Under the pieces are notes generated by a model. It searched no databases and was not told the origin of the DNA. It saw only the letters and a list, made by a program, of their open reading frames with translations. The position numbers and the translations under genes are program-made. Positions 37,439 through 64,000 of a stretch of DNA of 64,000 bases are shown in pieces. Source of the stretch: Isoetes taiwanensis (taxonomy: Eukaryota; Streptophyta; Lycopodiopsida; Isoetales; Isoetaceae); NCBI GenBank assembly GCA_021234155.1, contig JAJEKV010000071.1, positions 4,152,483-4,216,482 on the forward strand. The letters are read 5' to 3'. Positions within the stretch are counted from its first letter, which is position 1; each line of letters opens with the position of its first letter.

Positions 37439-37916
37439 TTGAAGATGGTTAACCGCATCCAGAACAGACTTCCACCACCTTTTGTTGCACCTAGTTCCTC
37501 TACTTCAGAGGAAATGCCCGATGAGCATGTGTTTTTGCCTGGTGCCCAGGCTTCCTCATCTCCTGCCTCAGCAACATCCTTGTTACTCCTAGACGATTCT
37601 GACGATTCTCCAAGTCCAACACACAACAGACTGCCACCACCTTTCCAACCGTCACCGAGCCCTTTAAGGAGTAGGTTGCCTTCTCCCTTCGTTCCATCTC
37701 CACTTGTACATAGTAGGCTACCACCTCCTTTTGTACCATCACGAGAAGCTGCAGATGCTGCACCACAACAGGTGTTTCAAAAGAGACTGCCCCCACCATT
37801 TGTAGCTTCTCTTCCAACAGGAAGAAGTACAAGATCTGCAACACGCCCACAAGAATGTGAAGTTTTCCATCACTTTTCTCACCATGACTTGTCTACAAAT
37901 GAAGACGATGTTGTAA
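37439..37916 (+). CDS. DUF7869-type gene, part 1 (5' end)
   Basis: Start of a plus-strand gene. It codes a Pro-rich N-terminus with five repeats of RLPPPF or RLPSPF followed by V/QPS, then a charged stretch (HHFSHHDLSTNEDDVV). The gypsy element 1 cuts it after the Val-Val codons. After removal of the element and one TGTAA, the frame continues at 51269 (RSPPLPTTVVTHGFAEFQ). The start at 37439 or 37445 (MKM / MVN) is uncertain. Confidence 0.7.
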
Positions 37917-39590
37917 TGTGACGTTCCAAAGCCGCGATATCGCCCGGGGCGTACACCGTCTTGCTTTGCCGTCGCAGCGTATACGCCACTCCAGCTGACG
38001 TGTACGCTAGCGTATAGCCAGGTGAGTAGCCCTAGGGGGCAACTTGCCAGAAATATGTGCAACTATTAATGTGCACATTTTCCAATGTACACACTAATGT
38101 GGGCACACATTTCCAAGTGGACACTTCATGCCAAGTGGGCCACACCCATAGGTGCAATTAATGTGCACATTTTCCAATGTACACATTAATGTGGGCACAC
38201 ATTTCCATGTGTGCACATTTGGCCACCTAGCCCTTAAAGGCAAGTGGGCCCATTTCCAAATTATCCCACATGCCAAAAGGGGATAATTGGAAACCCTAAC
38301 CAACCCCCTTGTCTATATAGGGTGGGAAACCCTAACTAGCCCAATTTTCGATTTTAGGGCTTTTAGATCTGTTTTGGGCATGCTTTACCAAAACCGCCTC
38401 AAAACTACGCTTGGGAGAATTGCATCCTTAGTTTTCATTGATTCGAGCGTCTTGGCAGGATGGTCGAGCTCAGGTCAGGAGGAGCCCCTCAAGGATCAGG
38501 TATTTGGGCAATTAGATAGTCTAAACCCTATTTTAGTCATTGAATCAGTAGGTTTAGCCTATTAAATTGCCCATAGCAGCCTCCTAGATCTCTAGATGCC
38601 AGCCTCTAACTAAAGAACCTAACTCTATGATATAGATTAAATCTTGTTCTTTAGTTCTCTATGATGTATATGGATGATGTATCTCTACGAACTCCTTGTA
38701 TTGGGAAGGGGGGTAGAGACCTAAAGCTTTGTAGATGATGCTCCTAGATTAGCCTCTCTAGCACACAATAGATTCGGCCTGTGCACAAGAGCCCCACCGG
38801 GATGTGGGTGAAGGGGCCAGACTGGCTGAGAAAGAGGTTCATGTCCTGACTCTTGAACGGTTCCTCTGGTGTGTAAGGCCTACCGGGAATCATTGTGACT
38901 AGGTCCAATGGCTTGCCACTGCGTGCGGGCAAGGCATGGGCTCGACACCCGTGAAGTGGTGTTCACTTTCCGATGGGTTCAATAACACGGGCAAAGGCGG
39001 GGCCCTCTAGTCACCTTGAGTCAAGATGTAGATCTCGGAGGAGTGATCCCTACCCGCCCCATCGGAATCGGGAAGATGAGCCCGTGAGTAGCCCCTTTGG
39101 CTATGCATCGGGCGGAGCTCTGGTGGGTCCCGACACTTTTCGCACCACTCGCAAAGTGTGCATGGGAGGGGCGGATGGAGTGGACAACCCTAAGCCATGT
39201 TCATATGCCCAAATCCATTGCCATGAATTTCGCTTTGCAATGAACTCACGGAGACCCAAGCCGTCGGTCATCCCTTTGAGTCCGAGCCTTGGGTAGGATT
39301 CCCTATGTGATGTGCTGATCCTTGTCTATGCAGAGATATGAGGAGGACCATCCTTCGTGATGGTCATATGATGTTGATGTATGTGCTACCGACATGTATG
39401 TTTACGCTTCGCAGCCTAGGTAGGCCCCGAGGGAGGCGGGGTGCAATGACCCTTCCACTCTTCCCACTTTGGAACCCGCCACGGTTGCGGTGTCATGTGG
39501 AGGGCCCCAGATTAGCATGGAGCTGGTATGGGGATGAACTCGCTTGTATACGGTGAGGGCACCGCATTACACGAGTAGGGGACGTCCACG
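37917..39590 (+). repeat. 5' LTR, element 1
   Basis: About 1674 bp. The start TGTGACGTTCC is clear. The end is blurred (GACGTCCACG where the 3' LTR has GACGTCACA). The U3 has a diverged tandem repeat (38059-38223, ATTAATGTGCACATTTTCC units). Confidence 0.88.
38313..38321 (+). promoter_or_regulatory. LTR TATA box, element 1
   Basis: CTATATAGG in the 5' LTR, repeated at 49988-49996 in the 3' LTR. Likely start of the genomic transcript; inferred from motif and position. Confidence 0.6.
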
Positions 39591-39591
39591 G

Positions 39592-39604
39592 TGGTATCGA
39601 GCAA
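39592..39604 (+). promoter_or_regulatory. Degenerate primer-binding site, element 1
   Basis: TGGTATCGAGC after the 5' LTR, compared with TGGTATCAGAGCC in element 2. Met-tRNA type with the A of CAG missing. Confidence 0.75.
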
Positions 39605-40224: not shown

Positions 40225-41510
40225 ATGATGGCATCGCATAAAAACAGCATCGCCGAAGCCTAGCCGGCCCGGATCCTCAGCCGCTCCTAGGCCCTCTTCG
40301 AGAATCTTTCGAGAACGCCTCCATGAAGGCTAATCTTCTTCGAGCGAGAGGGATGCAGTTCTGACAGAGCGATCGCCGACAGAAGCTCTTGGAGGACGAC
40401 CGGCCTGGACGCCATGAACCGTGATCCTAAATTTAAATTGCACTGTGAGGAGGGAAGAAGCGGACAGCAAGCAGGAGCAACCTCGAGGACGCCAACCCAC
40501 GAGGGAGCAGAGGGAACAAAGGACCAATCGATAGGCGAGGAGCAACACCGTGAAGAGACCCACACCGGGAGGAGCAAGGTAGAGAAGAGCAAAGAGTCAC
40601 CGGCTCACCCAAGAGGAAGAGGCCGACCTCGCACGCTTCGTCCACAAGTATGAAGCCAAAGAGCGCCGCCGGGAGCGGAGAACAAAGAGTCGAGAAGACG
40701 ACCCGACCGCAGCCAGCGGGTCCAAGAAAAGGAAGGCCAAAGCCATAAAGGCAGGCAAGAAGAAGGTGGTGAAGGTTGGGAAGCGGGCAGTGGATCTCGT
40801 CATCAACGAGCCGTCGGGAGAGGAGACCCCGCCCACCACCGACGACTTCTGATAAGACTACGTGCCGGGCGCAGACGGGCAAGCTCTTCAAAGCCCCGGT
40901 CAGAGGAAGAGGTCCCGAGCAGCAGCCCCAAGAACAGGAGGAGACCGGGCAGCTAGCGAAGCCCCCACCTTTTCCGACGTGGGATAGGGTTAAAGCCCCG
41001 CGACCCCAGCGAGAGGCCTATGTGATAGACCCCGTAAAGGTCTATCAGAAGAGGATTAGAGAGCACAACTCCTATATGGCGAAGTGGGAGGCCTACAATA
41101 CCTATTACCAGGAGCACAGGGTGAGGGCAGTCGAAGGTGGAGTACCCCCGAAGCAGAATCTGAAGCCACCCCCACCGAAGCCCAAGCCTCCCAGAGCACC
41201 AGGGAAGAAGCGGGCCGGCAAGAAGAAACTGGAGAACAGAGCCCTGAAGGAAATCCGGCACTTCCAGAGGAGTTACGGACTCTTGATCCCCAGGGCACCG
41301 TTCCAACGTTTGGTCCGCGAAGTTATGCAAGAATATAACACAGACATGCGCGTGACCGACGAGATGCTGTTGTGTTTACAAGAGGCGGCCGAAGCGTTTA
41401 TAGTAAAGCATTTTGAAGACTCAACGGCCTGCACGGCGCACGCGAAGAGGGTTACCCTCATGAGGCAGGACATGTATCTTGCCAGGCACATCAAGGGAGA
41501 ACGCCCTTGA
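40225..41510 (+). CDS. Retroelement-encoded histone H3-fold protein, element 1
   Basis: The C-terminal 95 residues are a complete histone H3 fold, with αN/α1 LKEIRHFQRSYGLLIPR and PFQRLVREV, α2 LQEAAEAFIVKHFED, α3 [11 protein letters not shown] and the end LARHIKGERP. Canonical H3 has LREIRRYQKS, PFQRLVREI, LQEAAEAYLVGLFED, HAKRVTIM and IRGERA, with the same spacing and no loop-1 insertion. Before it lie a basic-aromatic linker (VYQKRIREHNSYMAKWEAYN) and a Pro/Lys stretch (LKPPPPKPKPPR). The open frame runs from 40776. N-terminal sequence back to ATG 40225/40228 is Arg/Lys/Glu-rich but frame-broken; the start may be a decayed ARTKQTA tail. Total about 420 codons against 136 for H3. Own TATA upstream, AATAAA at 41560 downstream. 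Function unknown; a nucleosomal H3 variant is the natural hypothesis. Confidence 0.9.
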
Positions 41511-42218: not shown

Positions 42219-43743
42219 ATGGCCACTGCTGACTTCAGCCGATGGTACAGCGCCAGTGCTCACGCTGCTGAGGCAGATGTCAATGACATCTTCCAAGTCT
42301 TTGGCAAGGAAATTGACATTCAAGCTACGCTAAATGCAACCCCAGCATATAGGCAGGTGCTAGCAGAATTTCAAGCTAGGGTAGGACCTTCCCTTGTCCA
42401 AGTCCCCCCTTGCATAGGATACTTCGTTCCCCGCCCATCCCTTCAAGCAGCCTTGGGCGATGTCCCCAACATCGCCAAGTATTTGACTAACAAGGCGCAG
42501 AGGCTGCCTGACTACATGGTCTTGACAGCCAATAGGACGAAGTACTTCTCTTACACCGCAGCCCTAGCCATCTTCTTATCCCACCGCGCCGAGAACCCGA
42601 TGGGGGCAACCTCTATCCCTCCGATGGAGGTAGACCCCATAGCAGTGCAAGAAGAAGAGCAGATGCTGTTACAGTATCAACAGGAACAGGAAGCAAGAGA
42701 GGATGAAGAGGAGTCAGACAACGAAGGATACACGAGCTCGACTCGCATCTAAGAACGGCGCCAAGGAGAGCAGGGAGCCGATCGGGCTTCGAAAGCAGAG
42801 CCGGCAGGGCATCAGAGTTGCTCCCCCACTCGGGCTAGGCATCACAAGCCTAGCCCCTATCATCATCAACGGAGAGGAGTATCTACTCCTCAGCGACATC
42901 CAGAACCTTCCCGAATGCAGGGAGAGGGAGCTCAGGTTGGACGAACTGCTCCACCAACTGCGGCAGACCGACATGGACGACTTCATCGTCCGGGGAGCCT
43001 CAGACTTCCCGCTTCAAGTAAGGGAGGCCGACACCTACACTGTGGGAGACGACCTCCCATATCCGTGCCTACAAAGAAGATCAGGCAATTGATGGACGAG
43101 CTGGAGTCGCCAACAGAGGAGGAGTTCCTCGCCCTCCAAGAACAGATGGGGATCCGTGGGAAGACCACGAAGCATCCTAATGCCAATCCTCCAACATCAC
43201 CCCCGCCTAAAAGGAGAAGGAATCGACTCGTGGAGGCTCGACCGCACAATGGAAGACTACGGTGGAGCTAACTGAAATTGAAGTCGACGAGTACTGGGCG
43301 ACATGAGCCGGAGGCCAAACAAGCGAGAAGCTTCGCGACACACAAATAACGACAAAGTCGCCAGTACTACTTGCCGCTGCCGACGGATGGGGAGAATAGC
43401 GGTAATACACCGCAAGTTCAGTCCCCGAGGTGAAGAAGGAGTGTTCATGCCGACAGAATCGCCGCGGGCGCGGCGTGCATGCTCAATAGCAACAAATGTC
43501 GACTATGCCGTTTTAGTCAAGAGGGCAATGGCACTCGACCTTCGACCGCCATACCCCACCGACGCCAGCGAGATTATTATGATCGCGGCCCTACATCCGA
43601 CCCGCAGAGTAGAAGACCTGGTGAGAGCCATCCAGGAGGCTCGCCGCCAGCATCATCAGAACTTGGGTCACCTTCGGTAGGGACGCCCAAGTTAAGAAGT
43701 TTCTTGAAGACAACCCGTCTTACCGGCGATTTCAAGACTAGTT
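42219..43743 (+). CDS. ORF2, conserved protein of unknown function, element 1
   Basis: From ATG 42219 (MATADFSRWYSASAHAAEAD) through LPDYMVLTANRTKYFSYTAA and a Glu-rich acidic part (42640-42750). A frame change near 42750 leads to LGLGITSLAPIIINGEEYLL, and later frames (43303-43680) hold HRKFSPRGEE and RPPYPTDASEIIMIAALHP. Homologous to 58394-59054 in element 2 and 6033-7451 / 27708-29119 in family 3. It is neither gag nor pol and I recognise no domain. Own TATA and paired hairpins upstream. Intact as read only to 42752. Confidence 0.75.
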
Positions 43744-43907: not shown

Positions 43908-45180
43908 TTGCTTGTGTATGCAGCTAGAGGCCTAAACGCAGGGGAACGACAACTGCGAGACCTTATAGAAGAGCAAACCCCGCCCAGACCACCCCCGGCA
44001 AGGAACCTATTTGCAGATATAGAACCCATGACCCCAGAGGAAGAGATATCCCAGATGAGGACGGACCTGGAGCAGATAAAGGCTCTTTTAGCCGCACAAG
44101 CAGGAGCAGGTTCGGTGGGCAATGCTCAATTGCCACAAGCATCAGCCCGGAAAACGGGAAGAGACAAGAAGAGGAGCAAGAGAAGGAGATCCCCGAGCTC
44201 GGATTCCTCCGACTCAAGCTCAGACTCAGAATCCGACTCCGAGGAAGAGGAAGAACAGAACCAGGACTGAACTGATGGAAGGCAAAGGAACACTGAAGAG
44301 GGAAGGCAGAGGAACACCCCGTGATGGACGACAAAGAGACACCTGTGGCCTCGACACCGAAGAAGGTAGATTCCGTGACCGGGCAATGTATGGAAGGCTC
44401 TGAATCGAACAGCTTCTCGGGGAGAACAGTCGATTAGAAGCAGAGGCATGGCTGGGACGAAATGAGTGAGTACGCAACGCTTTATGGCATGAAAGATAAA
44501 GACAAAGGCAGAGTTGCAACAGCCAACTTGAAAGGAGCCGCTGGATTTGGTGGAAGGGTTATGCAAAGGCACATGGCTTAAGCAGGATGCTTGTAAGTTC
44601 AGAAGTTTGCTAAAGCCTTCAAGCCATTACGCCCCAAGGGAACATAAGTCCAAAGATGATGCAAAGCCAGTTCTATAGGCTCCAACAGTGGAAACAAATC
44701 AGTCCGTAAATATACGTAAGAATTCATGAGGCTAAGGTCAGAAAAGCCGGGGTTGGGAGAGAAGCATGCAAAGGGAAAGCTATATCGAAGGGTGAATGAG
44801 GAGATCCGCAAGCTTGTGAGAGCAATAAACCCTAGGATAGTATCGGCAGAGTCCAAGGCTATAAGCTTTGCAGTGGGTCGGGACCTCGAGAATAGCGGGA
44901 GGGCAAAGAACATTTCGGTGACAAAGGCAAGGCGACAGGAGCTATAGCCCTAGGGCAGCAAATCCAGTCCAGCTAGAGCCCATATGGGGGGCAAACCGGG
45001 AAACAAAGCAGGAGAAGAAGCGTGTGTCCTTCAAGGACAAGCGGGGAGGGGTCAAACTACTCCAAAGCGGGCGATCCTTTTTGTGCCATGCCCAAGGAAA
45101 AGAGGCAGGAGTGCATAGAAAAGCAAAGGTTTCGTGTGCTTCCAGCCAGGCCATAGGACAGCAAACTGCCCCTACGTCAT
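43908..45180 (+). pseudogene. gag, element 1
   Basis: The N-terminal part (43908-44270) has coil-like (ISQMRTDLEQIKALLAAQAG) and Arg/Ser-rich stretches (KRSKRRRSPSSDSSDSSSDS). The capsid-like core near 44400-44900 is badly frame-broken; element 2 has the intact equivalent. A zinc knuckle remnant ends the region ([11 protein letters not shown] at 45134). Several of the losses align with CTGCAG or CAG in element 2. Confidence 0.75.
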
Positions 45181-48100
45181 GAGTGCAGCTCTAGCGGAGT
45201 TGGGAGATTGGGACACTCTGTCTGACAACGACGGCGAGGAAGCCCGTGACTACATTCAGGGTGAGTGTCATATCTTTGCCGCAATAGATACAGAGCAAGC
45301 AGAGAGCCAGTATAAAGTAATTTCCACAGTAGGGAAAGCTAAGACCAAGTCATTCATAGTCTTAATAGACTCAGGAAGTAGCCATAACTTTGCATCCCCC
45401 AGAATGGTTCAAATGTTGAAGTTGAAACCATTAAAGTCAAAGCCAAGGCCCGTTGTCTTAGCAAGTGGTGCAGTAAGGCAGACGGCAGGAAAGAGAATTA
45501 ACTTCGACATCGACTTGCCAGGGATTGGTATCCAGATGGGGGCAGAAGTAATGGGCATTGGCAAGTACGACTTGATCATAGGGATGGAGTACCTTGGGCC
45601 AGCAGGGGCCATTATCGATTGTGGAAAGCGGAAGGTGACCTTCCCAACACCCGACGGCAGGATTATTGAGATAACAGGTAAGGAAGTCGTTTCCATCATG
45701 CAGTGTATGTCTTCTAAACGGCTGTTCAAGTGCATCAAGAGTGAGCAAGTGGCATATATCTTCAAGCTTGAGATTAGTGAGCCGGAATCGGAAGGAAGCA
45801 AAGAAGACAAGGTGCTCAGCAAGTTGCCGAAGCAAATAGCTAAGCTGATCACGGAGTTCCATGATCTCTTTCCAGATGAGATCAAGCAGCTCCCTCCTTA
45901 TAGGGGAGTTGAGTGCGAGATTGCACTCGAACCAGGAACAAAGCCAACGAGCAAGGCTCCATATAGAATGACAACGCAGGAATTGTCGGAGCTGAAGAAG
46001 CAGTTGCAGGAGCTGCTTGACCTAGGTTTTATTAGACCTAGTGTCTCGCCATTTGGAGCGCCCATCCTCTTCGTTAAGAAGAAGGATGGCAGTTTAAGGA
46101 TGTGCATAGACTATAGGCAGTTGAATAAGCACACCATTAAGAACAAGTACGCGCTCCCTAGATCAGATGACTTGATGGATCAGCTCCAAGGGGCAAAGAT
46201 CTTCTCCAAAATCGACTTAAGGTCAGGTTATCATCAGATCAGGATAAAGGAAGAAGATATCCATAAGACCGCCGTAACGCGCAGACGGGCACTATGAGTT
46301 CACGGTAATGCCTTTCGGCTTATCGAATGCCCCCGCAACGTTCATGAGGCTCATGAACGACATCTTCAGGGAGTTTTTAGACACCTTTGTGATTGTTTTC
46401 TTTGATGACATTTTGGTGTATAGCAGATCCCTTGAAGAGCACGTTCAACACTTGAGAAGAGTGCTGGAGAAGTTGATGAGGCACCAGTTGTACGCCAAGT
46501 TGTCAAAGTGCCACTTCGCAACAGAGAAAGTGGAGTATCTAGGTCATGTGATCTCAGCAGAAGGCATCTCGACGGATCCTGCAAAGATTGAAGCCGCTAT
46601 TCAAAGGGCGCCACCAAGAATGTGCACGAGGTCGAAGTTTTCTGGCCTAGCAGTGGTACTACAGAAGTTCGTGAAGAACTTTGCTAAGATAGCAGCCCCT
46701 TTAACTGCAGACCTGACGAGGGCAGAGAAGGTGAAAGATTGGGTAGAGCATTGGCACAAGAAAGCCCAAAAGGGGTTTGAATTGTTGAAAGAAGCTCGAC
46801 GATTTACTGCCTTGACCTTGCCGGACCCGAGAAAGATAAGCTTGTAGCAACAGATGCAGTAAGATAGCTACAAAAAGGCTTATGCAAGAAGAGCATGTGG
46901 TAGCATATGATTCCGTGAAGATGAACGACGCCGAGACGCGCTTACCCAACGACGCATCAGGAGTTGCTTGCGGTTGTCGTGGCATTAAGAATATGGAGGC
47001 ATTATCTCTTGGGAAGGAAGTTCCAATTGATACCCACCATCGAGCCTCCAATATGTATTCACGCAACCACACCTTAACTGAGAGGTGAGGAGATGGATGG
47101 AGTTCCTCAAGAATATGACTTTGATATAGTCTACAAGCCGGGAAGCTCAATGTGGTAGCAGATGCGCTTTCAAGGCATCCCCCGACAACTAGAGTGCATT
47201 GCAATGCAATTTCGACGCCTCCAAATGACTTTGGTAAGAGGATTGAAGAGTCCTTGCCAACGGATGCGGATTTCAAAGAAGTATGGGCAAGCCTTTCTAA
47301 GGAGGCTAGAACAGATAAAGAGCGGGAGGCCTTCAAGCATTATAAGAAGGAAGGCAACCTGTTATACCATAAGAACAAGTTGTGCGCACCGAATCATCGG
47401 TGTAAGGAAGTTGATCCTCCATGACACGCACAACAGCCCAATAGCTGGCCATGCGGATTCATGAAAACATATTTCAAAGCGCAGCAGCCTATTATTGGCC
47501 AGGAATGAAGAAGCAAATAGCTCGCTACATCAAGGAATGTCAGCTATGCCAGCAGACGAAGGCGGAGCAGCTTCGAATTCCAGGGGCATTAGAGCCATTA
47601 GCGGTGCCAAACGCTAAGTGGGAGGTAATCAGCATGGACTTCATCACGGGACTCCCAAGGCGAAAGAAGAGGGAAGGATGCCTTGATGGTAGTGGTCGAC
47701 AAGTTGTCTAAGATGGCACATTTTGTGCCTTTGTGACCACGAGATACAGCTATGGATACAAAGAAAGCTCTTCACCAAAGAGATCTTCGTGCTTCATGGC
47801 ATGCCAAGGGAGATCATCTCCCATGTGGATCCGAAGTTCATGAGCGCCTTTTGGCAAGACCTCTTTGGCGACAATCCGACGGCTATCCATGAGCACGCAT
47901 ATCATCCTCGACGGATGGCCGCATCGAGCGGACCAACAGATTCTAGAGGACATGCTACTTAAACTATGTCCGAATAAGCAAAGTATGTGGGAAGAATTTA
48001 TTCACTTGGTGGAGTTTGCATACAATAGCACCAAGCAGAATCATCCCAAATGTCGCCGTTTATGATCAATTACGGCTATCGCTGTTTAACCCGCACACTT

Positions 48101-48747
48101 GGCACAACCCCCGTGTCAAAAGTGGAAGTTTCGCAGCCAGATGTTGGCGGATATGCAGCAGCCTTGTGGAAGAAGTTCGAGGGTATCTCACTGGCAAAGA
48201 AGAAGTCGCCAAGAGCATCGCCGACAAGCATCGAACAGTCAGAGAGTTCAAAGTTGGAGATGATGTTTGGCTCAAGATCAAGGTAAAGCAGGCAAAGCTC
48301 AGGATCGGGAATTGCAAGAAACTTGCTCCAAGGTGGGCTGGACCCTTCAGAATAGTCAAGAGAGTAGGCAATCAATCCTACAAGCTAGACTTGCCAGCAC
48401 ACCTAAAGATTCATAAAGTCTTCCACGTAAGTTTGTTGAAGAAGCATACTCCCAATCCAGACGAAGTCTTGGATTCTCCAACGTTGTTGGAAATGACGGA
48501 GGAGCAGCTGGAAATAGTTCCGGAATTGATTCTTGATAAAGCTTTCAAGAAAACGAGGAGATCAGAATTCCTCCAGTATTTGGTCAAGTGGAAACACTTA
48601 CCAGTGGAAGACGCGACATGGGTACTTAAGAAAGATTTAGTAAAGCAAAGATCCACAGCTTTATGGAGCAATGGGGACGGCAAGGTCATCTCCTCAAGAA
48701 ATCGGCTCGTGCATGTCGATTTGTGTAGGTTAATTCTGTGTAATTAA
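45134..48747 (+). pseudogene. pol polyprotein (PR-RT-RH-IN-chromodomain), element 1
   Basis: Open from 45134 to 46297: aspartic protease ([19 protein letters not shown]) and the first half of reverse transcriptase ([26 protein letters not shown]). After a frame shift near 46285, RT continues with [12 protein letters not shown] and the catalytic box [12 protein letters not shown]. RNase H is fragmentary (VAYDSVKMNDAETR; KLNVVADALSRHP region). Integrase shows CQLCQQTKAEQ of the zinc finger and KWEVISMDFITGLPR of the core. The end (48016-48747) has GPFRIVKRVGNQSYKLDLP and a chromodomain (RSEFLQYLVKWKHLPVEDAT, then WVLKKDLV). RNase-H-to-integrase is broken at least six times. Confidence 0.9.
48520..48665 (+). 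CDS. Chromodomain, element 1
   Basis: LILDKAFKKTRRSEFLQYL, then VKWKHLPVEDATWVLKKDL matches the chromodomain at the integrase C-terminus of chromoviruses (Y-LVKWKG-P-E-TWE). In this family the domain guides integration by reading histone marks such as H3K9 methylation. The aromatic cage is not fully canonical (V.K.D in place of E). Confidence 0.8.
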
Positions 48748-49596: not shown

Positions 49597-51263
49597 TGTG
49601 ACGTTCAAAGACAAAGATCGCCCGACGCATACACCGCATCGCCGCCACACGCGCACACGCCACTCCGGTGACGCGGTACGCTTAGCGTGATAGCCAGTGA
49701 GTAGCCCTAGGGGGCAACTTGCCAGAAATATGTGCAACTATTAATGTGCACATTTTCCAATGTACACACTAATGTGGGCACACATTTCCAAGTGGACACT
49801 TCATGCCAAGTGGGCCACACCCATAGGTGCAATTAATGTGCACATTTTCCAATGTACACATTAATGTGGGCACACATTTCCATGTGTGCACATTTGGCCA
49901 CCTAGCCCTTAAAGGCAAGTGGGCCCATTTCCAAATTATCCCACATGCCAAAAGGGGATAATTGGAAACCCTAACCAACCCCCTTGTCTATATAGGGTGG
50001 GAAACCCTAACTAGCCCAATTTTCGATTTTAGGGCTTTAGAACTCTGTTTTGGCTGCCTTAACAGCCAAAACCGCCTCCCGTGACCGCTTTGGGAGAATT
50101 GCATCCTTAGTTTTCATTGATTCGAGCTTGCCTTGGGGGATGGTCGAGCTCAGTCGAGGAGCCCCTCAAGGATCAGTATTTGGGCAATTAGATAGTCTAA
50201 ACCCTATTTTAGTCATTGAATCAGTAGGTTTAGCCTATTAAATTGCCCATAGCAGCCTCCTAGATCTCTAGATGCCAGCCTCTAATTAAAGAACCTAACT
50301 CTATGATATAGATTAAATCTTGTTCTTTAGTTCTCTATGATGTATATGGATGATGTATCTCTACGAACTCCTTGTATTGGGAAGGGGGTAGAGACCCAAA
50401 GCTTTGTAGATGATGCTCCTAGATTAGCCTCTCTAGCACACAATAGATTCGGCCCAGGCACAAGAGCCCCACCGGGATGTGGGTGAAGGGGCCGGACTGG
50501 CTGAGAAAGAGGTTCATGTCCTGACTCTTGAACGGTTCCTCTGGTGTGTAAGGCCTACCGGGAATCATTGTGACTAGGTCCAATGGCTTGCCACTGCGTG
50601 CGGGCAAGGCATGGGCTCGACACCGTGAAGTGGTGTTCACTTTCCAATGGGTTCGGTCCGAACACGGGCAAGGGGCCCTCTAGTCACCTTGAGTCAAGAT
50701 GTAGATCTCTCGGAGGGGAGGATCCCTACCTGCCCCATCGGAACCGGGAAGATGAGCCCGTGAGTAGCCCTTTGGCTATGCATCCCGGCGGGCTAAGGCC
50801 GGGTCCCGACACTTTTCGCACCACTCGCAAAGTGTGCAATGTGAGGGGCGGATGGAGTGGACAACCCTAAGCCATGTTCATATGCCAGCCAAATCCATTG
50901 CCATGAATTACGCTTTGCAATGAACTCGAGACCCAAGCCGCCACCATCCCTTTGAGTCCGAGCCTTGGGTAGGATTCCCTATGTGATGTGCTGATCCTTG
51001 TCTATGCAGATATGAGGAGGACCATCCTTCGTGATGGGCATATGATGTTGATGTATGTGCTACTGACATGTATGTTTACGCTTCCGCAGCTAGGTAGGCC
51101 CTGAGGGAGACGGGGTGCAATGACCCTTCCACTCTTCCCATCGAACCCGCCACGTTGTTTAAAGTGTCATGTGGAGGGCCCTGTATTAGCATGGAGCTGG
51201 TATGGGGGATGAACTCCTGTTTGTATACGGTGAGGGCACCGTACACGAGTAGGGGACGTCACA
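49597..51263 (+). repeat. 3' LTR, element 1
   Basis: 1667 bp, TGTGACGTTC to ACGTCACA. Differs from the 5' LTR mostly by small indels, many at CAG/CTG. Confidence 0.93.
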
Positions 51264-51268
51264 TGTAA

Positions 51269-52123: not shown

Positions 52124-53670
52124 TGTGACGTCCCCTACTCATATATGGTGCACTCACCGTATACAAACAGGAGTTCATCCCCCATACTAGCTCCATGCTG
52201 ATACAAGGCCCTCCACGTATCAGTGCAACCTTGACGAGTTCCAGTGGGAAGAATGAAGGGGTCATTTTACCCTGTCTCCCTCAGGGCCTATCTAGTTGCG
52301 GAAGCGTAACTCACATGTAAGTATACATACATCAATACCACATGACCATCACGAAGGATGGCTCACCACATATCTGCATAGACAGAGATCAGTACATCAC
52401 ATATGGAGATCCTACCCAAGGCTCAGACTCAAGGGGGATGACTGACGGCTTGGGCCTCCAGGAGTCATTGCAGACAGAATTCATGGCAAATGGATTTGGC
52501 TGGCATAAGAACATGGCTTAGGGTAGTCCACTCCATTCGCCCCTCCTGTGCACACTTTGCAGAGTAGGTTGAAAAGTCTTGGGACCTGACTGTAGCCCGC
52601 CGGATGCGTAGCCAGAGGGGCTACTCCTGGGTCCCAGTTCTGATGGGGCAGGTAGGGATTACTCCCACCAGAGGTTGGCATGCTGACTCAAGGTGACTAG
52701 AGGGCCACTGCCCGTACTCGATTGAACTCCATGGAAGGTGTACACCACCCCAAGAGTGTCGAACCCATGCAAAGCCTGCACGCAGTGGTAGAGCATTAAT
52801 TAGGTCTAGTGCACTGTAGTCCCCGATAGGCTTTACTACCAGAGGGACGTGATCATGAGTCAGGACATGAACTTCCTTATAAGCCAGTCTGGCCCCTCCA
52901 CCCACAACCAGGTGTGGCTCTTGTACACAGGCCGAATTTAATAGTGCATTAAAGAGGACTAGCTAGGAGCATCAACTACTAGGCTTTTAGGGCCTCTACC
53001 CCCCTTCCCAATACAATGATTCCACGGAGATCGTCATCACATACATATCATAGAAGAACTAAAGGATAAGATTTAATCTAAATCACAGAGTTAGGTTCTT
53101 TAGTTATGGCTTGATATCTAGAGGTCTAGATGGCTGCTATGGGCAATTCAATAGGCTAAACCTACTTAGGGCTATGTCTGGGAGGCGGATTAGACTATTG
53201 AATTGGCAAAATACCTGATCCCTGGCTTGCTCCTCCTGCTCTGAACGCGTCCATGCTGCAGAACTGCTTGAAGATGAAGCCGGAAAGGAAAGCTGATGAG
53301 CTAGGCTACTCAGACAGACTTCGGGAGTCGAGATTGGCTATTGGAGTAAGCAAAACGGAGCTCTAGAAGGTTGTGGACGAAAATGGAAAGTTAGGGTTTC
53401 GGATGCCTTATATAGGCTATAAGTTAGGGCTAGGGTTTCCATCAACCATTGAGCTTGTGGGATAAATGAATGTAGCCCACTTGCCTATATTAATTAAGTG
53501 GGCTAAAGTGCACACATGAATAAATGTGCACACTTTCAAGTTGCCCCCTAGGGTGCTACTTGCTTAGCTACACGTCGGCGTACATGTCAATCGGGATGGC
53601 GGTGTACATGGACGATGCAAAGACAAGATAATGCGCCTTGGGACCGTGATATCGCGGCCGGAACGTCACA
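52124..53670 (-). repeat. 3' LTR, element 2
   Basis: 1547 bp, plus-strand ends TGTGACGTCCCC and GGAACGTCACA. A TATA box on the minus strand lies near 53407-53418 (GCCTATATAAGG). Confidence 0.92.
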
Positions 53671-54633: not shown

Positions 54634-54927
54634 CTAAACATAAATGGACATGCCTGAGCCGACATTTTGAGATGACCTTGCTGTTCCATTGCTCCATGAA
54701 CTGCTGGCATGCTTTATCAGGTCCTTCTTAAGTACCCATGTCGCGTTTTCCACCGCAAGTGTTTCCACTTGACCAAATATTGAGAAACTCGATCTCCTTA
54801 TCTTCTTGATCACCTTATCAAGGATCAAGTCCGGGACTATCTCTAGTCGCTTCTTTTCGTCATTTCCAACAACGTTGGCGGTCCAAGACTTCTTCCGGTT
54901 TGGAGTATGCTTCTTTAGCAAACTCAC
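54634..54927 (-). pseudogene. pol C-terminus with chromodomain, element 2
   Basis: MSLLKKHTPNRKKSW, then LEIVPDLILDKVIKKIRRS and VENATWVLKKDLIKH: the same chromodomain as in element 1, with a small frame slip (FSIFGQVETLA for FLQYLVKWKHLP). Confidence 0.75.
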
Positions 54928-56478
54928 GTGGAAGACTTTATGAATTTTCGTGTGTGCCGGCAGCTCTAACTTGTAGGATTGGTTACCTACTCTTGGCTAT
55001 TCGGCGGGGCCAGCCCACCTTGGAGCAAGCTTTATATTTCCGGGATGAGCTTTGCCCGCTTCACTTTGATCTTGAGCCGATGTTGTCGCCAACCCGAACT
55101 CTCCTCGACCGCTCGGTGCTTATCGGCGACGCTTCTTTTTGTCGACTTTTTGCCGCAAGAAGATATCCTGACCTCTTCTACCAGCCGCCGTGATGTCGGC
55201 CAACATTTGCCGCAAAACCTCTACCTTTGACACAGGATTGTGCCAAGTGTCCGAATTATACATTGGTAGTCAGAGTTGATTATGAACGGCCATATCCGGG
55301 ATGATTCCTCGCTTGGTGCTATTATGTTTAACTCAACCAAGTGAATGTAATCTTCCCACTTACTATGCTTGTTCCGGACATAGTTTCTTAGCATATCTTC
55401 CAAGATTCTCGTTGGTCCGTTCGTTTGCCCATCCGTCTCGAGGATGATAGGCGTGGTTTCATGGACGCCTTTGTCCGGATCGTCGAAAAAGATCCCCGCC
55501 AAAAGGCACTCATGAACTTCGGTCTCGGTCGAAGATGATCTCTCAAAGATACCATGGAGCCTCAAGATTTCCTTTGTGAAGAGAGCCACTCGCCAGATCC
55601 AAGGCCGCGGTCGTTGGTCCCGCAAGGCACAAAGTGTGCCATCTTCGACAGCCTTGTTCCACCACAACCATCGTGGCATCTTTTTCCTCTTGCCGCCCCT
55701 CGGAGCCCTGTTATGAAGTCCATATCGATGACTTCCCACTTAGCGCTCGCACCGCTTAATGGTTCCGGATGTTCTGAATTCGGTTGCTCGCTTTTTATCT
55801 GACACAACGGACACTCTTTGATGTAGCGAAGCTATCTGCTTCTTCATCCCTGGCCAATAATAACTGCTGCGCACTTTGAAATATGTCTTCATAAATCCTG
55901 CGTGGCCAGCTATTGGACTGTTGTGTCCTTATCTGTTCTTGCCTCCTTGCACAAGCTCGCCCACACTTCCTTGAAGTCTGCATCTGTCGGCAAGGTTTCT
56001 TTGATCTTCTTCCGGGTCGCCGGTGAGTGCCGAGATTGGCGTTAAAGGTAACTCTTGTTGTCAGAGGATGCCTTGAAAGCGCATCTGCTACCACATTGAG
56101 CTTTCCCGGCTTATAAACTATAATAAAGTCGTATTCTTCGAGGAACTCCATCCACCTTTGCTGCCTCAGGTTGATATGTGGTTGCGTGAACACGTATTAG
56201 AGGCTCTGATGGTCCGTATCCAGATGGAACTTCCTTCCCAACAGGTAGTGCCTCCAAATTCTTAGTGCTCTGACAACTGCAAGCAACTCATGAGTCGGGT
56301 AGCGCGTTTCGGCGTCGTTCATCTTCCGAGAGTCATAAGCTACTACCCTCTCTTCCTGCATGAGTACTGCACCTGTTTTGGTAATTTGCTGAGCACCTTC
56401 TCTTCGTTGTTTTCTTCTGACTCGGGCTCTTCGATCTGAAGCTTGAAGACATAGGCTACCTGCCTGCTCTTTATGCAC
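54928..56478 (-). pseudogene. RNase H and integrase remains, element 2
   Basis: Fragments in several frames: VLMQEERVVAYDSRKMNDAE and RALRIWRHYLLGRKFHLDTD (RNase H, 56197-56400), KPGKLNVVADALSRHPLTTR (55795-56193), AKWEVIDMDFITGL (integrase core, near 55730). The equivalent of the integrase zinc finger is partly deleted near 55870-55930. Non-functional as read. Confidence 0.8.
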
Positions 56479-57028
56479 TTGAGCAGCCGCTTACTAGACA
56501 TACACTGCATGATAGGAACAACTTCCTTACCTGCAATTTCTATGATTTTGTCGTTGGGCGCCGTCAAGGTCACTTTACGGTTCCCACAGTCGATGATGGC
56601 CTTTGCTGGAGCGAGGTACTCCATGCCGATGATCAAATCATACTTCCCTATGTTCATCACTTCTGCTCCCATTTGGATGTTGATCCCTGGCAAATCGATG
56701 TCAAAATTTATCCTCTTGCCTGCCGTGTGTCTCACTGCCCCGCTTGCTAACACCACGGGTCTCGGCTTTGACTTCAATGGCTGAGCTTCAACATCTCAAC
56801 CATTCTTGGAGACGCAAAGTTGTGGGTGCTCCCTGTATCTATCAGGACTATGAAAGATTTGGCCTTGGCCTTCCCTACTGTGGAGATTACCTGATACTGA
56901 TTTTCTGCTTGGTCTGAATCTATGGCAGCGAAGATGTGACATTCACCCTGAATGAAGTCGCGTGCTTCCCCGCCGTCGTCGTCAGAGGGAGTCTCCCATC
57001 CACCCAACTCTGCTAATGCCGCATTCAT
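56343..57028 (-). pseudogene. Protease region, element 2, fused to RNase H by loss of RT
   Basis: [20 protein letters not shown] is the retropepsin active site (DTG). A frame break at about 56777 is followed by [20 protein letters not shown] and on to VLSKLPKQ, which joins directly to the RNase H start (VQYSCRKRG in this frame). In element 1 about 1 kb of reverse transcriptase lies between these two points. Element 2 therefore lacks RT altogether and could move only in trans. Confidence 0.85.
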
Positions 57029-57831
57029 GACAAAAGGGCAGTTTGCTGTTCTGTGGCCTGGCTGGAAGCACCTGAAGCAGAGCTGTTTCTCAATGCACTC
57101 ATGCCTCTTTCCTTAGGCATTGCTTGCAAAAAGGATCGCACCGCTTTCGAATAGTTTGACCCTTCTTGCTGCGGCTTATCCTTGAAGGATACCTGTTTCT
57201 TTTCCTGCTGCTTCCCATAACTGCCATTGTATGGAGCCTTTGCTGGTCCTGGACTAGCTGCTCTAGGGCTATAACTTCCTGTTGCTTTGCCCTTATCCTG
57301 GTAGTAGTGTTGTTTCTGCCCACTGTTCTGAGGGCCGGATCCTTGCAGGCTGACTGCTTTCGATTTCGCCTCTGATATTCGAGGATTAATTGCTCTTACC
57401 AGCTTCCTTATCTCATCGTTTAATCCTTCGATATACCCTTCCACTGCATGGCATTCACTCAGCTTTGGCACATAAAGCCTCAGTTTCATGAACTCTTCCG
57501 TGTATTTCTGCACGGACTTGTTGCCCTGCTGTAGCCGATAGAATTGTTGCATCATGTGGCATTTGTGCTCCCTTGGCACATAGTGGCGCTTGAATGCCTT
57601 TGAAAATTTCTTGAATCTGCAGCTATCCATGCTCAAGCCATGGGCCTTGGCATAGCCCTTCCACCATATCCTGGCTGCTCCTTTAAGGTTGGCTGTAGCC
57701 ACCCTGCCTTTGTCTTTGTCCTTCATTCCGTATGCATTCCCGTATTCCCTCATCTCGTCCAGCCAGGCCTCTGCCTCCATGCCTGACCGACTGTCACCTG
57801 AGAATTGTTCGAGCTTTCTTGCCTTCCACAT
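57025..57831 (-). CDS. gag, element 2 (intact)
   Basis: 268-codon open frame: GMEAEAWLDEMREYGNAYGM, AARIWWKGYAKAHGLSMD, FSKAFKRHYVPREHKCHMMQ, AVEGYIEGLNDEIRKLVRA. This is the usual retrotransposon gag core. Just beyond, in another frame, comes the zinc knuckle [14 protein letters not shown] (C-X2-C-X4-H-X4-C) near 57030-57090. The best preserved gag of the three families here. Confidence 0.9.
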   Translation of the reverse strand: MWKARKLEQFSGDSRSGMEAEAWLDEMREYGNAYGMKDKDKGRVATANLKGAARIWWKGYAKAHGLSMDSCRFKKFSKAFKRHYVPREHKCHMMQQFYRLQQGNKSVQKYTEEFMKLRLYVPKLSECHAVEGYIEGLNDEIRKLVRAINPRISEAKSKAVSLQGSGPQNSGQKQHYYQDKGKATGSYSPRAASPGPAKAPYNGSYGKQQEKKQVSFKDKPQQEGSNYSKAVRSFLQAMPKERGMSALRNSSASGASSQATEQQTALLS

Positions 57832-57916: not shown

Positions 57917-59054
57917 CTACCTCTTCCTCGGAGTCGGAGTCCGATTGTGAGCTTGTATCGGAGGAGTCCGTGCTAGGGGGTGAATCTCCGTCAGGTCTCT
58001 GTGGTCCCTTATTGTTGATGCGATTCTTGTGAGGTCAATCTCGCCTCTTCTCTGAACACCTGTGGGAGCTGGTGTCGAAGGACTTGGCATCAAAATATTT
58101 GTGGTCTTGCCATGGATCCCCATTCGTTCTTGGATGGCGTAGAATTCTTCTTCTGAAGGCAGGTCCCGGGCTGTCATCAATTGCCTGATGCTGCTATATG
58201 CCTCAATATCTGAAGTCGACTCCCCGGTGTAAGTGTCGGCTTCTCTTACATTGATTGGGAAGTCGAAAGCCTCCCGATCGATAAAATCATCCAGATCTGG
58301 TTGTTGCCACATAAGGTACAGCAACTCATCGAGTCTATACTCCATGTCTCTGCATTGAGGAAGGTTCTGGATGTCACTGAGGAGCAGGTACTCCTAGCCG
58401 TTGATGATGATGGGGGCTAGGTTTGTGATACCTAGCCCGAGCGGGGGAGCGATCCCGTGAGTCTGCAGGTCCTGGTCGAAAGAATGTATCTCCTGCTCCG
58501 CTTGTTGCCGCTCCTGGTCGGGGTTGAACTCGACGTAGTCTTCATCGTCTGAATCGAGCTCTTCGTCTTCAGCTCTTCCTCTTTGCTCCGCTTGATATTG
58601 CAAGAGGAGCTGACCTTCTGCTGGAGAGGCTAAGGGATCCACATCCATGGCCAAGATGGAGGGTTTCCCGATTGGGTTCTGGGCACGGTGAGAGACGAAG
58701 ATGGCTATGGCAGCAGTATAGGAGAAATATTTGGCCCTATTAGTTGTCATGACCATGTAATCTGGCAACCTAGCAACTTTGTTGTTCAGGTACTTGGCAA
58801 TGTTCGGGACATCACCCAAGGCTGCTTGGAGGGATTTCTTAGGAACAAAATATCCTGTACAAGGGGGAAGCTGTACTAAGAATGGTCTTTACCCTAGCTT
58901 GGAACTCAGTCATGACTTCCATATAGGATGGGGTTGCCTGCAAAGTGGCTTGGATGTCTATCTCCTTCTGGAAAACTTGGAAAATGGTATTGATATCAGC
59001 CTCAGCCACATGAGCACTGGCGCTGTACCAGTGCCTGAAATCTGCAAGTGCCAT
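57917..59054 (-). pseudogene. ORF2, conserved protein of unknown function, element 2
   Basis: From ATG 59054: MALADFRHWYSASAHVAEAD, after a frame slip LPDYMVMTTNRAKYFSYTAA and an acidic stretch (EDEELDSDDEDYVEF), then LGLGITNLAPIIING. A stop is followed by MEYRLDELLYLMWQQPDLDD and FPINVREADTYTGES. Same order as element 1 but lacking its C-terminal part (the HRKFSPRGEE region). TATA at 59166-59174 upstream. Confidence 0.72.
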
Positions 59055-59369: not shown

Positions 59370-59629
59370 ACTTGCGCTAGAGGGCTGACCTAAAATTTAG
59401 GTCGAGGTCCTGGCACATACCGTGAGTAATTCGGCCCTATTTGGTCAAAACTTATCTAAACAGGATGAACTAAGGGTCAAAACATGATGGTCTCACCGAG
59501 ATATACAAGATTGACCCCTTAGTCGGCCGATTTAGAGATGGTTAGGACCCTTTCTGATGTGAAATACTCACGGTGTGCGCCTGGGGCCTGACCTAAATTT
59601 TGGGTCGATGCTCTGGCACATACCGTGAG
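59370..59629. repeat. Hairpin pair upstream of ORF2, element 2
   Basis: Copies at 59370-59426 (left arm eroded) and 59567-59629. The better one has arms CTCACGGTGTGCGCC and GGCACATACCGTGAG around an inner palindrome GACCTAAATTTTGGGTC. The sequence is unrelated to the element 1 hairpins; length and spacing are the same. Confidence 0.88.
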
Positions 59630-59744
59630 TAAGTTCTCACTCCTTGACCATATGAAGTCCATTTTAACTAAAACAAAAAGCAATTACTGCTAATTCAACC
59701 TCATTAACAACATTTATGAACTTAAAACTTGTTCTACAAAACTT

Positions 59745-59774: not shown

Positions 59775-60990
59775 TTAGCGTTCTCCTTTAATAGAACTTG
59801 CCAAGTGCATGTCCTTGGTCATTAATGTTACTCTCTTGGCGTGTAAAGTGCACGCCCTCGAGTCCTCAAAATGCTGCACCAACTTCTGCTCTTCTGCTTC
59901 CTATAAGGCTAGCAGCGTTTCGCCTGTGACTCTCATGCTCGTGTCGAACTCTTGTACGACCTCCTTGACGAGTCTGGCGAATGGTGCTCGGGGAATGAGA
60001 AGGCCAGAACTTCTCTGAAAATGCCGGATCTCTCGGACTGCTTGCGACAGTCTCGATCCGGGCTTCTTTGCTACTGGCTTCTTGGGCGGGATGGGTTTCT
60101 CTGGAGGTGGCTTGAGGGTCTTCTTCTTTGATGGCCGTCCTCCTTCGACATAAGTTTCCTTATTGGCCTGGTAGTAGGAGTTGTAGGCCTCCCACTTCTT
60201 CATATATTCCTTATAGGCCTTCAATTTCTTCTGGTAAACCCTGAGATGGTCTACCACGTACGACTCCCGGCAGGTCGGGTGGGGTAGGGTGGGGGGTACC
60301 TATACCTGCTGATCCTCGGCCGCCGGTTTCGAGGAGCTCCCTACTTCTTGGTCTCCTCTGGGGAAGGGCTGGTAATCCTCGTCATTAGAGTCGTCAGAGG
60401 ATGGGGGCTGGTCGGCTGCTGTTCCTTGATGACGAGCTTGACCGTGGGTGTCTTCTTTAGCTTCTTCTTGGGCTCCTCCTTGCCCTTCCCTTTGAGCTTT
60501 TTCTTTGCTTCTGCCTCCTGTTCTTCTCACTTCCTTTTCTTCTCGGCCCTTCTCCTCTTCTTGCATTGTGACTTCGTCTCCTGCATTTGAATCCATGCCT
60601 CGATCTCTTCTTCTAAGGTGGGTTCGGGAGTGGGCTCCTTTTGTTCTTCCTGCTCATTGGCAGCCTGCTCCCGTTCTGCCCTCTCCTGCTGTCGTATCTC
60701 CTCTTCAATTTGCTCGGATACCCTGCGGGTTTCTTCATCCATTGAACCCTCAGAGTCAATGTCTGCTTCTTCGTCTAAGCGCTGGTTGATGATGTCGACT
60801 AGTTCCTCCAAGGATTCCTGCCTGGACTCCTCCTTCAGTGGTCGTCAGACATACTCTCTTCTGCTGACGAAGATGGGTCTCCTCCTGCGAGAAGCTGCTC
60901 CCGAAGTAGCTGCTGCATCCTCCTCTTGTCTTAGGCGCTAGCCCTTTCACCTGATCGATGCTTGCGTGCTGTCTGTTTGGTGCGCGCCAT
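59775..60990 (-). pseudogene. Retroelement-encoded histone H3-fold protein with H3 tail, element 2
   Basis: Starts at ATG 60990 with MARTKQTARK, identical to the H3 N-terminal tail through Lys9, then HRSGERASA. After frame breaks come acidic Glu-rich segments (EEEIRQQERAEREQAAN; SSDDSNDEDYQPF), a linker (VYQKKLKAYKEYMKKWEAYN), a Pro/Lys stretch and the histone fold: [52 protein letters not shown], ending IKGER. An in-frame TAG (59901-59903) stands where H3 has Gln93 (ALQEA); the rest reads on in the same frame. About 406 codons. It is preceded by TATAAATAG and two hairpins. A nucleosome-incorporated H3 variant is an inference; the homology itself is clear. Confidence 0.9.
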
Positions 60991-61467: not shown

Positions 61468-61660
61468 GCAATTTCCACACTTGGTCAAAGTTTAGTTCAA
61501 CTTTTTAGTTTGGTTTTCAATTCTTCTAACTATTACTAGCTTAGCATAACTACAAAAAATGAGAAAAAAAAATTTCCCACTTTTTCGAGGTTTGAGAATT
61601 CTACTAAGTTAGTACTACTGGGAGCATGGCCAGTGCTTTGCTCTTGGTCTCCAAGAACAT

Positions 61661-61673
61661 GGCTCTGATACCA
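61661..61673 (-). promoter_or_regulatory. Primer-binding site, element 2
   Basis: Minus-strand TGGTATCAGAGCC, one base from the 5' LTR. Complement of initiator Met tRNA. Confidence 0.92.
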
Positions 61674-61674: not shown

Positions 61675-63197
61675 TGTGACGTCCCCTACTCATATACGGT
61701 GCACTCACCGTATACAAACAGGAGTTCATCCCCCATACCAGCTCCATGCTGATACAAGGCCCTCCACGTATCACTGCAACCTTGACGAGTTCCAGTGGGA
61801 AGAATGAAGGGGTCATTTTACCCTGTCTCCCTCAGGGCCTACCTAGCTGTGGAAGCGTAACACACATGTAAGTATACATACATCAATATCACATGACCAT
61901 CACGAAGGATGGCTCACCACATATCTGCATAGATAGAGATCAGTACATCACATATGGAGATCCTACCCAAGGCTCAGACTCAAGGGGGATGACTGACGGC
62001 TTGGGCCTCCAGGAGTCATTGCAGACAGAATTCATGGCAAATGGATTTGGCTGGCATAAGAACATGGCTTAAGGGTAATCCACTTCATCCGCCCCTCATG
62101 TGCACACTTTGCAAAGTAGGTTGAAAAGTCTTGGGACCTGACTGTAGCCCGCCGGATGCGTAGCCAGAGGGGCTACTCCTGGGTTGCATCTCCCCAGTTC
62201 CGATGGGGCAGGTAGGGATTACTCCCACCAGAGGTTGGCATGCTGACTCAAGGTGACTAGAGGGCCACTGCCCGTACTCGACTAAACTCCATGGAAGGTG
62301 TACACCACCCCAAGAGTGTTGAACCCATGCAAAGCCTGCATGCAGTGGCAGAGCATTAATTAGGTCTAGTGCACTGTAGTCCCCGATAGGCTTTACTACC
62401 AGAGGGACGTGATCATGAGTCAGGACATGAACCTCCTTATAAGCCAGTCTGGCCCCTCCACCCACAACCAGGTGTGGCTCTTGTACACAGGCCGAATTTA
62501 ATAGTGCATTAAAGAGGACTATCTTGGAGCATCAACTACTAGGCTTTTAGGGCCTCTACCCCCCTTCCCAATACAATGATTCCACAGAGATCATCATCAC
62601 ATACATATCATAGAAGAACTAAAGGATAAGATTTAATCTAAATCACAGAGTTAGGTTCTTTAGTTATGGCTTGATATCTAGAGGTCTAGATGGCTGCTAT
62701 GGGCAATGCAATAGGCTAAACCTACTTATGCTATGCCTGGGAGGCGGATTAGACTAATTGGCAAAATACCTGATCCCTGGCTTGCTCCTCCTGCTCTGAA
62801 CGCGTCCATGCTGCAGAACTGCTTGAAGATGAAGCCGGAAAGGAAAGCTGATGAGCTAGGCTGCTCAGACAGACTTCGAGAGTCGAGATTGGCTCTTGGA
62901 GTAAGCGAAACGGAGCTCTAGAAGGCTGTGGACGAAAATGAAAAGTTAGGGTTTCGGATGCCTTATATAGGCTATAAGTTAGGGCTATAGGGTTTCCATC
63001 AACCCTTGAGCTTGTGGAATAAATGGATGTAGCCCACTTGCCTATATTAATTAAGTGGGCTAAAGTGTACACATGAATAAATGTGCACACACTTGCAAGT
63101 TGCCCCCTAGGGTGCTACTTGCTTAGCTACACTTTGGCGTACACGTCAATCGCGATGGCGTGTACGCGTGACGATGTTGTACAGTATACGTCTTGGG
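61675..63197 (-). repeat. 5' LTR, element 2
   Basis: About 1523 bp; matches 52124-53670 but lacks the outermost ~25 bp at its right end. Minus-strand TATA box near 62963-62970. Confidence 0.88.
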
Positions 63198-64000
63198 ACC
63201 GTATACTACTGAATTTGGTCTTGTGAAAATTCCTCGAAGACATAGAATGTCTGTGTGTTCAACGTGTGCAGAATTGAAAAGTCAAAAAGAATTTGCAAGG
63301 ACAGAGGTCGAAAAAAGTAAGTTCAAGTTCTTCATTCTCGTACTTGCATCATGTAATTGTTTTGACCTGCTTCCTTCAACAGACGTTGTGCAGCAGAAGC
63401 TTGCTAAACACCGTGACCAACAAGCAGCTGAGATAAGGAAGCTTGCTAAGCATAGAAAAAAAGCTCTTGAGCGTCCACTAGAGTACATGTCCGTTGTGAT
63501 TGATGGAATGGATAAAAAAAAGACAACTCTACCTCATTTCTTGAATATTCCAAAAGATGTGTCAGAAGAATGCTTTGTCAAGGTCCACCTTGTAGGGGCC
63601 ATGGTCTTCAATGGGAGTCTAAGTTGCAAAGACTTCTTAACATATCCTAATTTGCATGGTGATCCGAATCTCACAATTACAATTCTTAACAAGTTCTTTG
63701 TGAGCAACAGCAGTTACCACCAGTGCTCTTGCAACTTGACAACACTACCAGGGAGAACAAAAATCAAACACTCTTTGCTTACTGTGCCATGCTAGTGGAG
63801 CTAGAGATTCTCAGAAAAATAAAGCTCAGCTTCTTACTGGTAGGGCACACACACGATCAAATAGACCAGATGTTCAGCAGGTTTTCGGTGCGTCTCAGAA
63901 GGAAAAAAAACTTTTTGTCTTCCCACTTTGGTTCGAATCATTGAAGACTCTTACACTCCCATGCCAGTGGTTGAGCTTCTAAAGGAGACTGCCGACTTCA
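63198..64000 (+). CDS. DUF7869-type gene, part 3 (runs off the window)
   Basis: Continues part 2: TTEFGLVKIPRRHRMSVCST, CAELKSQKEF, then LEYMSVVIDGMDKKKTTLPH, YPNLHGDPNLTITILNKFF, LLQLDNTTRENKNQTLFAYC and FLLVGHTHDQIDQMFSRFSV. These are the hallmark motifs of the family (ID-GMD, QLDN--RENKN, GHTH--IDQ-FS). The spacing of Asp, Asp and His/Asp residues recalls an RNase-H-like nuclease, but that is inference. One-base frame changes occur near 63713 and 63915. Confidence 0.75.

Follow-up and report, generated by a model that had tools for sequence, protein, structure and literature searches.

A histone H3 gene retained in a lineage of putative chromovirus-type LTR retrotransposons of Isoetes taiwanensis

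Introduction

How marks on histone H3 keep transposons silent is among the central questions of plant epigenetics. A 64,000-nucleotide stretch of the Isoetes taiwanensis genome (contig JAJEKV010000071.1, positions 4,152,483 to 4,216,482; hereafter the window) raises the question whether an LTR retrotransposon carries a histone H3 gene of its own and, if so, what the gene may do for the element. The original prediction placed an H3 reading frame between the primer binding site and gag of one element (element 2), recognised its homolog in a second (element 1), and took the gene (here retro-H3) for an old possession of the elements of a kind not described before. As to the last point, no chromovirus or other retroelement with a histone gene was found in the literature searched, which excludes preprints and most subscription papers. 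The word “histone” is absent from the accessible main text of the I. taiwanensis (PMC8566536) and I. sinensis (PMC10541799) genome papers, and from the accessible parts of a gene-capture review and of a review on additional ORFs (PMC7264820).

Results

Two LTR retrotransposons in the window

The LTRs, primer sites, gag, protease, reverse transcriptase and integrase chromodomain identify elements 1 and 2 as probable chromovirus-type Ty3/gypsy elements (Table 1). Chromo (E = 8.8e-9, within 48016-48747) and Integrase_H2C2 (E = 5.2e-10) were matched in element 1, the copy searched for them, whose LTR ends are TGTGACG...GACGTCACA (TG...CA), with the TGTAA duplication on both sides. No target-site duplication was seen at the outer 5' end of element 2, where the LTR is truncated. 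The two elements are well diverged, with a Kimura distance of 0.33 between their 5' LTRs. They have in common with plant Ty3/gypsy chromoviruses the LTRs, primer binding site, gag, protease, reverse transcriptase, integrase with chromodomain and 5-bp target duplication, but differ from them in having about 4-5 kb between primer binding site and gag, with H3 and ORF2 inside. The order in the lineage is LTR, H3, ORF2, gag, pol with chromodomain, LTR, so that H3 is the first ORF recognised past the primer site.

Table 1. Features of elements 1 and 2, in positions of the window
Feature	Position	Strand	Remarks
Element 1 target-site duplication TGTAA, left	37912..37916	.	
Element 1 5' LTR, starts TGTGACG	37917..39586	+	LTRs share 92.6% identity (Kimura 0.078)
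Element 1 primer binding site	39592..39602	+	TGGTATCGAGC, altered from TGGTATCAGAGC
Element 1 retro-H3 gene	40228..41510	+	decayed start at 40228
Element 1 H3 open frame	40776-41510	+	Pfam Histone E 5.5e-28
Element 1 intact H3 core	about 41241-41507	+	uninterrupted
Element 1 ORF2	42219..42752	+	177 aa, no Pfam match
Element 1 gag	44404..45115	+	frameshifted
Element 1 protease and reverse transcriptase	45134..46847	+	two open frames; RVP_2, RVT_1
Element 1 integrase	47451..48747	+	zinc-binding domain, chromodomain at end
Element 1 3' LTR	49597..51263	+	purine tract AAGGTGGGGAGAA before; TGTAA duplication after, 51264-51268
Element 2 3' LTR	52124..53670	-	
Element 2 homolog (44%) of element 1 integrase-chromodomain ORF	54664..55326	-	
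Element 2 protease region	56370..57070	-	in pieces
Element 2 gag	57025..57831	-	Retrotrans_gag E 4.2e-17; Ty3_capsid also matched
Element 2 ORF2	58574..59054	-	two frames; 58-72% identical to element 1 ORF2
Element 2 retro-H3 gene (relic)	59775..60990	-	tail, insert and core in differing frames
Element 2 H3 core	about 60041-59778	-	one TAG at 59903-59901
Element 2 H3 tail, exact MARTKQTARK	60990-60961	-	
Element 2 primer binding site	61662..61673	-	TGGTATCAGAGC
Element 2 5' LTR	61675..63202	-	about 24 bp missing at the outer end; LTRs share 96.0% identity (Kimura 0.041)

Both elements have hairpin-forming stretches of about 70 nt, two before the H3 gene and two after it (39785-40050 and 41645-41930 on the plus strand; 59370-59640 and 61205-61480 on the minus strand); the arm sequences differ between the elements and the layout is alike. 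Four of the eight fold at z of -5.8 or lower, the others at -1.2 to -3.0, and two controls gave -3.1 and +1.2. An ORF adjoining the truncated end of element 2 (63193-63944) resembles DUF7869 weakly, below the cut-off (E = 5e-4). Elsewhere the window holds a large segmental duplication, about 85-98% identical between the pairs 1-3520/17879-21382, 3615-9960/25261-32154 and 9961-11439/35198-36495, with PPR-like ORFs with a DYW-like end (18834-20628) and a LEA-like ORF (22468-23058), all named by eye. Remains of older elements in the duplication (27727-28215, 31855-32130 and also 9636-9947) resemble gag and, at 25% identity, ORF2, and a profile scan of the window detected no H3 in them. A long low-complexity stretch at 30118-31059 has overlapping ORFs on both strands.

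The H3 genes of elements 1 and 2

The element 2 gene begins at 60990 with the A of its ATG and ends at 59775, where the stop codon that follows GER is complete. The H3 tail expected at the start is exact, and the expected gapless core aligns with plant H3 over 88 residues (53% identity, E = 3.9e-27). The opening frame runs for 19 codons and then stops, and the long insert is spread over other frames. The element 2 copy is thus a broken relic: its H3 identity and its position between primer binding site and gag were as originally proposed, but the single open frame was not. The equivalent gene of element 1 likewise has the predicted place and an H3 core, recognised by Pfam when the translated region was searched against histone families, but not an intact start, since MASHKNSIAEA is found where MARTKQTARK is expected. 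The best PDB matches of the element 1 core are H3.3 and H3.1 (H3.3, E = 7e-30), aligned without gaps.

A local profile scan found H3 in these two places of the window only, the three remaining matches having E-values of 6.6-9.4. A chance origin is excluded by the E-values of the two genes and by the existence of further genomic copies. Canonical host H3 (L001-L015) has in common with retro-H3 the first nine tail residues and a core alignable without gaps; retro-H3 differs from it in a long insert or extension and in core identity to plant H3, which is 53-57% for the window copies and 67-88% over the matched part for 15 further loci (L016-L030, of the family B type described below). A lone recent capture was rejected in view of this divergence and of the many diverged relatives.

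Retention of the gene across the genome

The assembly searched comprises 1,658,258,908 bases in 1110 contigs. The element 1 protein gave 11,417 first-look candidates, which are not verified copies; 150 were scored and all 150 matched, at 70-100% identity. Thirty loci of this family (family A) were fetched by H3 similarity, element 1 itself among them, with a query that lacked the tail. ORF2 follows H3 in 28 of the 30 (element 1 included), and in eight a single open frame starts with MARTKQTARK unchanged, crosses a long charged insert and reaches the H3 core, the other 22 not being open throughout. On another contig, locus L061 has a 5' LTR, the primer site TGGTATCAGAGC, an intact H3 ORF of 439 residues, ORF2, gag and protease-reverse transcriptase, and thus repeats the predicted order from the LTR through protease-reverse transcriptase. 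That a host H3 gene merely lies beside an element was rejected on the same order in L061 and on the position of H3 inside the LTRs, together with gag and pol, in elements 1 and 2.

An independent sample was drawn with the protease-reverse transcriptase of element 1, which leans toward elements near element 1. From 107 matches listed among 28,157 candidates, every fifth (5 to 100; n = 20) was examined over a 1.3-kb stretch at the expected H3 place. Fourteen of the 20 carry H3, 13 at the expected place and one shifted, with a frameshifted H3 farther upstream (L072/L090). One (L066) has lost the gene by a deletion that fused the leader to post-H3 sequence between hairpin-type repeats, and five (L065, L074, L078, L079 and L081) have other DNA at that place.

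Selection on the core

dN/dS was taken as the ratio of sums over pairs among 13 pol-chosen copies, elements 1 and 2 and L061. For the core it is 0.30 in the three closest pairs (dS up to 0.3), 0.15 at dS 0.3-0.5 (6 pairs), 0.16 at 0.5-0.8 (18 pairs), 0.14 at 0.8-1.2 (20 pairs) and 0.07 at 1.2-3 (15 pairs), and synonymous sites are saturated in 58 of the 120 pairs. For the linker it is 0.24-0.28, above the core values at dS over 0.3. That close pairs have a higher core ratio is in keeping with copies decaying once inserted; seven of the 13 copies sampled, and also element 2, have a stop or frameshift in the stretch read or are split across frames. Loci chosen by H3 similarity gave 0.03-0.05 at dS 0.3-1, and because that choice biases the values downwards we rely on the pol-chosen set. 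Purifying selection on the H3 core, at 0.07-0.16 for dS above 0.3, is thus well supported.

A transduced host H3 could hitch-hike as a passenger that does nothing for the element. According to the accessible part of a review (PMC7264820), plant LTR elements are known to contain captured fragments of their hosts, and many copies here are broken. Such a passenger is nevertheless extremely improbable, since dN/dS lies far under 1 and many pairs are saturated, tail and core are both retained, and H3 lies upstream of gag in families A and B alike.

Retro-H3 is a standing gene of its chromovirus-type Ty3/gypsy lineage, present in most sampled members and under purifying selection. It is real, old, rich in relatives and constrained, and its identity as an H3 is nearly certain. 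The original view of an old, retained gene rather than a random capture is borne out by the 14 carriers in the pol-chosen sample, the accompanying ORF2, the low core dN/dS and the synonymous changes in the tail. Neither of the two outcomes named beforehand as speaking against it, a near-exact host histone match in a single copy or a lack of H3 in other family members, is borne out: the window copies are 53-57% identical to plant H3 in the core, and most sampled members carry the gene, with one clear loss by deletion among the 20.

Tail, insert and core of the protein

The intact family A protein consists of H3 residues 1-9, exact, some 340 charge-rich residues where H3 has 37, and a C-terminal H3 core. 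Compared with the histone H3 tail ARTKQTARKSTGGK, residues 1-9 are exact in 18 of 29 loci (L032-L060), all with MARTKQTARK, and the sequence differs from S10 on; 23 of the 29 keep at least 7 of the 10 positions, and six have no recognisable tail. Because the fetching query lacked the tail, the exact tails are not an artefact of locus choice. Among the 23 loci plus element 2 (the six tail-less loci left out), the tail codons vary synonymously while the residues up to K9 stay, beyond K9 the residues vary, and position S10 is P in 22 of 24.

In two tabulated family A copies, C110, H113, R116, D123 and L126, and R69, R72, R83 and T118 are kept, which we take to be H3-H3 interface and DNA-contact residues in canonical H3; their retention argues for a probable use in nucleosomes, not merely for a tail. 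Nucleosome contacts are partly altered, as the same copies have the substitutions R49K, R63P, K79N, K122Q and R129H. An AlphaFold model of one intact copy was poor (mean pLDDT 48).

Other families and proteins with an H3 core

Two further families were found in this genome, and Pfam Histone was matched in all three (E = 8.1e-27 in family A, L061; 1.1e-43 in B, L062; 2.4e-41 in C, L083). Family B (L022 and the 10-kb stretch L062) encodes a 459-residue protein with a different N-terminal part and an H3 core, with gag and protease-reverse transcriptase downstream; gag also follows H3 in L026 and L027. Family C (L083-L089) shares 48% of its ORF residues with B. It has a short downstream ORF weakly like ORF2 (against family A ORF2, hhalign E = 4.7e-4, probability 32%), and no gag or pol match was found within 4 kb past its H3. 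The proteins read from families B (L022, L026) and C (L083-L085, L088, L089) start with something other than the K4/K9 tail, so a mechanism based on the tail cannot be general.

Unnamed proteins in ENA also combine the tail, a differing insert and an H3 core; 10 of 14 aligned start with exact MARTKQTARK and then diverge. A profile of four of them matches 6454 of 8000 scored proteins, ordinary H3 included, and 119 of the 120 matches listed are in ENA only. These proteins may be element-borne as well. An ENA-type query matches families B and C in this genome, chiefly in the core; hhalign links the B/C proteins to those of ENA through the core alone, and their N-terminal parts gave no alignment. 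Profile scans found no relatives in viral contigs or in the genome contigs scanned, and a further protein search returned mostly ordinary H3 proteins and gene models containing H3. Four unnamed H3 proteins with long N-terminal extensions (P0066, P0094, P0069 and P0011) may be more element or host H3 variants.

The conserved tail could be explained by a decoy, in which surplus ARTKQTARK would occupy the host H3K9 and H3K4 methyltransferases and readers and blunt silencing, the core serving only to hold H4 or a chaperone. That tail identity stops at K9, with P next in nearly every tail-bearing copy, and that most aligned ENA proteins keep the exact tail and diverge afterwards, would be expected of a decoy. 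We regard it as unlikely, however, as the constraint on the core exceeds that on the linker, beyond what a decoy needs, and the family B and C proteins retain the core without the tail.

Relationship to centromeric H3

Trees were built from 90 columns, with two plant CENH3 sequences supplied by us and with long branches. Family A forms a clade (support 100/99 and 100/100). The split of family A plus plant CENH3 from the rest has support 98/87, in a tree with these supplied CENH3s, long branches and no host CENH3. Human CENP-A falls on the opposite side of that split, and one family B sequence (L019) stands apart from the remaining B sequences. The data do not reject a single clade that unites families A, B and C (p-AU 0.064); with the ENA proteins the value is borderline (0.034). 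The proposed tree thus yielded the clade and its separation, but not a placement relative to host CENH3: among the 150 matches listed for a rice CENH3 core query, at 65-73% identity, no CENH3 was distinguishable.

Family A might accordingly derive from or mimic plant CENH3 and confer centromere-like chromatin on its own copies or on the target of insertion. Besides the split, by eye, IRHFQ, LLIPxAPF, T-x-E-x-L-L and VTLMR are common to family A and Arabidopsis and/or rice CENH3, and both are divergent from H3. We consider such a centromere-type variant very unlikely. Loop 1 of family A is not lengthened, whereas the supplied CENH3 sequences are longer there, and the core aligns to H3 without gaps with H3.3 and H3.1 as best PDB matches; family A also differs from CENH3 in its exact ARTKQTARK tail and in being element-carried. 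Long branches can attract, the position of CENP-A and the search for a host CENH3 speak against it, and the 150 scored family A matches lie on many contigs, by a contig tally that leaves clustering aside.

Discussion

The best explanation, which we hold to be rather probable, is a standing retro-H3 gene acting as a variant H3 in nucleosomes on the element or its surroundings. Its most likely function would be to alter the chromatin of the element from within those nucleosomes. Nucleosome use is favoured over a pure tail decoy because the core is constrained, and contact with writers or readers of K4/K9 is favoured because the tail is kept up to K9.

As to mechanism, retro-H3 would be translated during element activity from the 5'-most recognised ORF, pair with host H4 and enter nucleosomes as a replacement H3. 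The kept K4/K9 tail would engage host writers and readers, perhaps also the chromodomain of the element's own integrase. The bulky charged insert in place of S10 to K36 could loosen or label these nucleosomes, such that they withstand lasting silencing or flag a favoured target. We place this course of events near, or a little below, an even chance. A direct link between chromodomain and H3K9me is weakened by the element 1 chromodomain, which by eye keeps one of three residues that we take to be the HP1 aromatic cage.

Alternatively, the histone might coat element cDNA in the particle or pre-integration complex, in the manner of a nucleocapsid or a viral histone. An H3 without H4 would be a poor packaging protein, and it is hard to see what the conserved K4/K9 tail would do in such a complex, so this role is distinctly unlikely, even though the H3 gene is separate from gag and upstream of it. 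Some DNA viruses do carry histones, discussed in the accessible part of PMC9145170 as wrapping viral DNA, among them a xenomavirus H3 and a bracovirus H4. Like retro-H3, these are single core histones with an extended or diverged tail; retro-H3 differs in being carried by a retroelement, in its many relatives in a single genome and in its approximately 340 residues between tail and core. Other LTR elements have captured regulatory genes, for example orchid Ty3/gypsy elements with an AlkB-type m6A demethylase, which, as far as the accessible text tells (PMC12786077), also have an additional ORF possibly acting on host regulation, whereas the added gene here is a core histone upstream of gag.

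A variant H3 in nucleosomes, as preferred above, leads to a wider view that we put forward only tentatively, as less probable than the mechanism itself: a retrotransposon lineage may make its own chromatin, placing an H3 variant on its DNA or targets and so changing how the host marks and silences it. The family A core would have drifted to or from a CENH3-like form, at least two diverged families of elements in one plant would have preserved an H3, and the ENA proteins may suggest a wider habit. The findings suggest that a retrotransposon is able to supply a chromatin component of its own. An element-borne H3 that has both the exact K4/K9 peptide and the core would serve as a natural experiment on the regions of H3 that count when host and element are in conflict, and it opens to direct testing whether elements write their own chromatin. 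If this is true, histone variants can also originate and be dispersed in the form of mobile genes.
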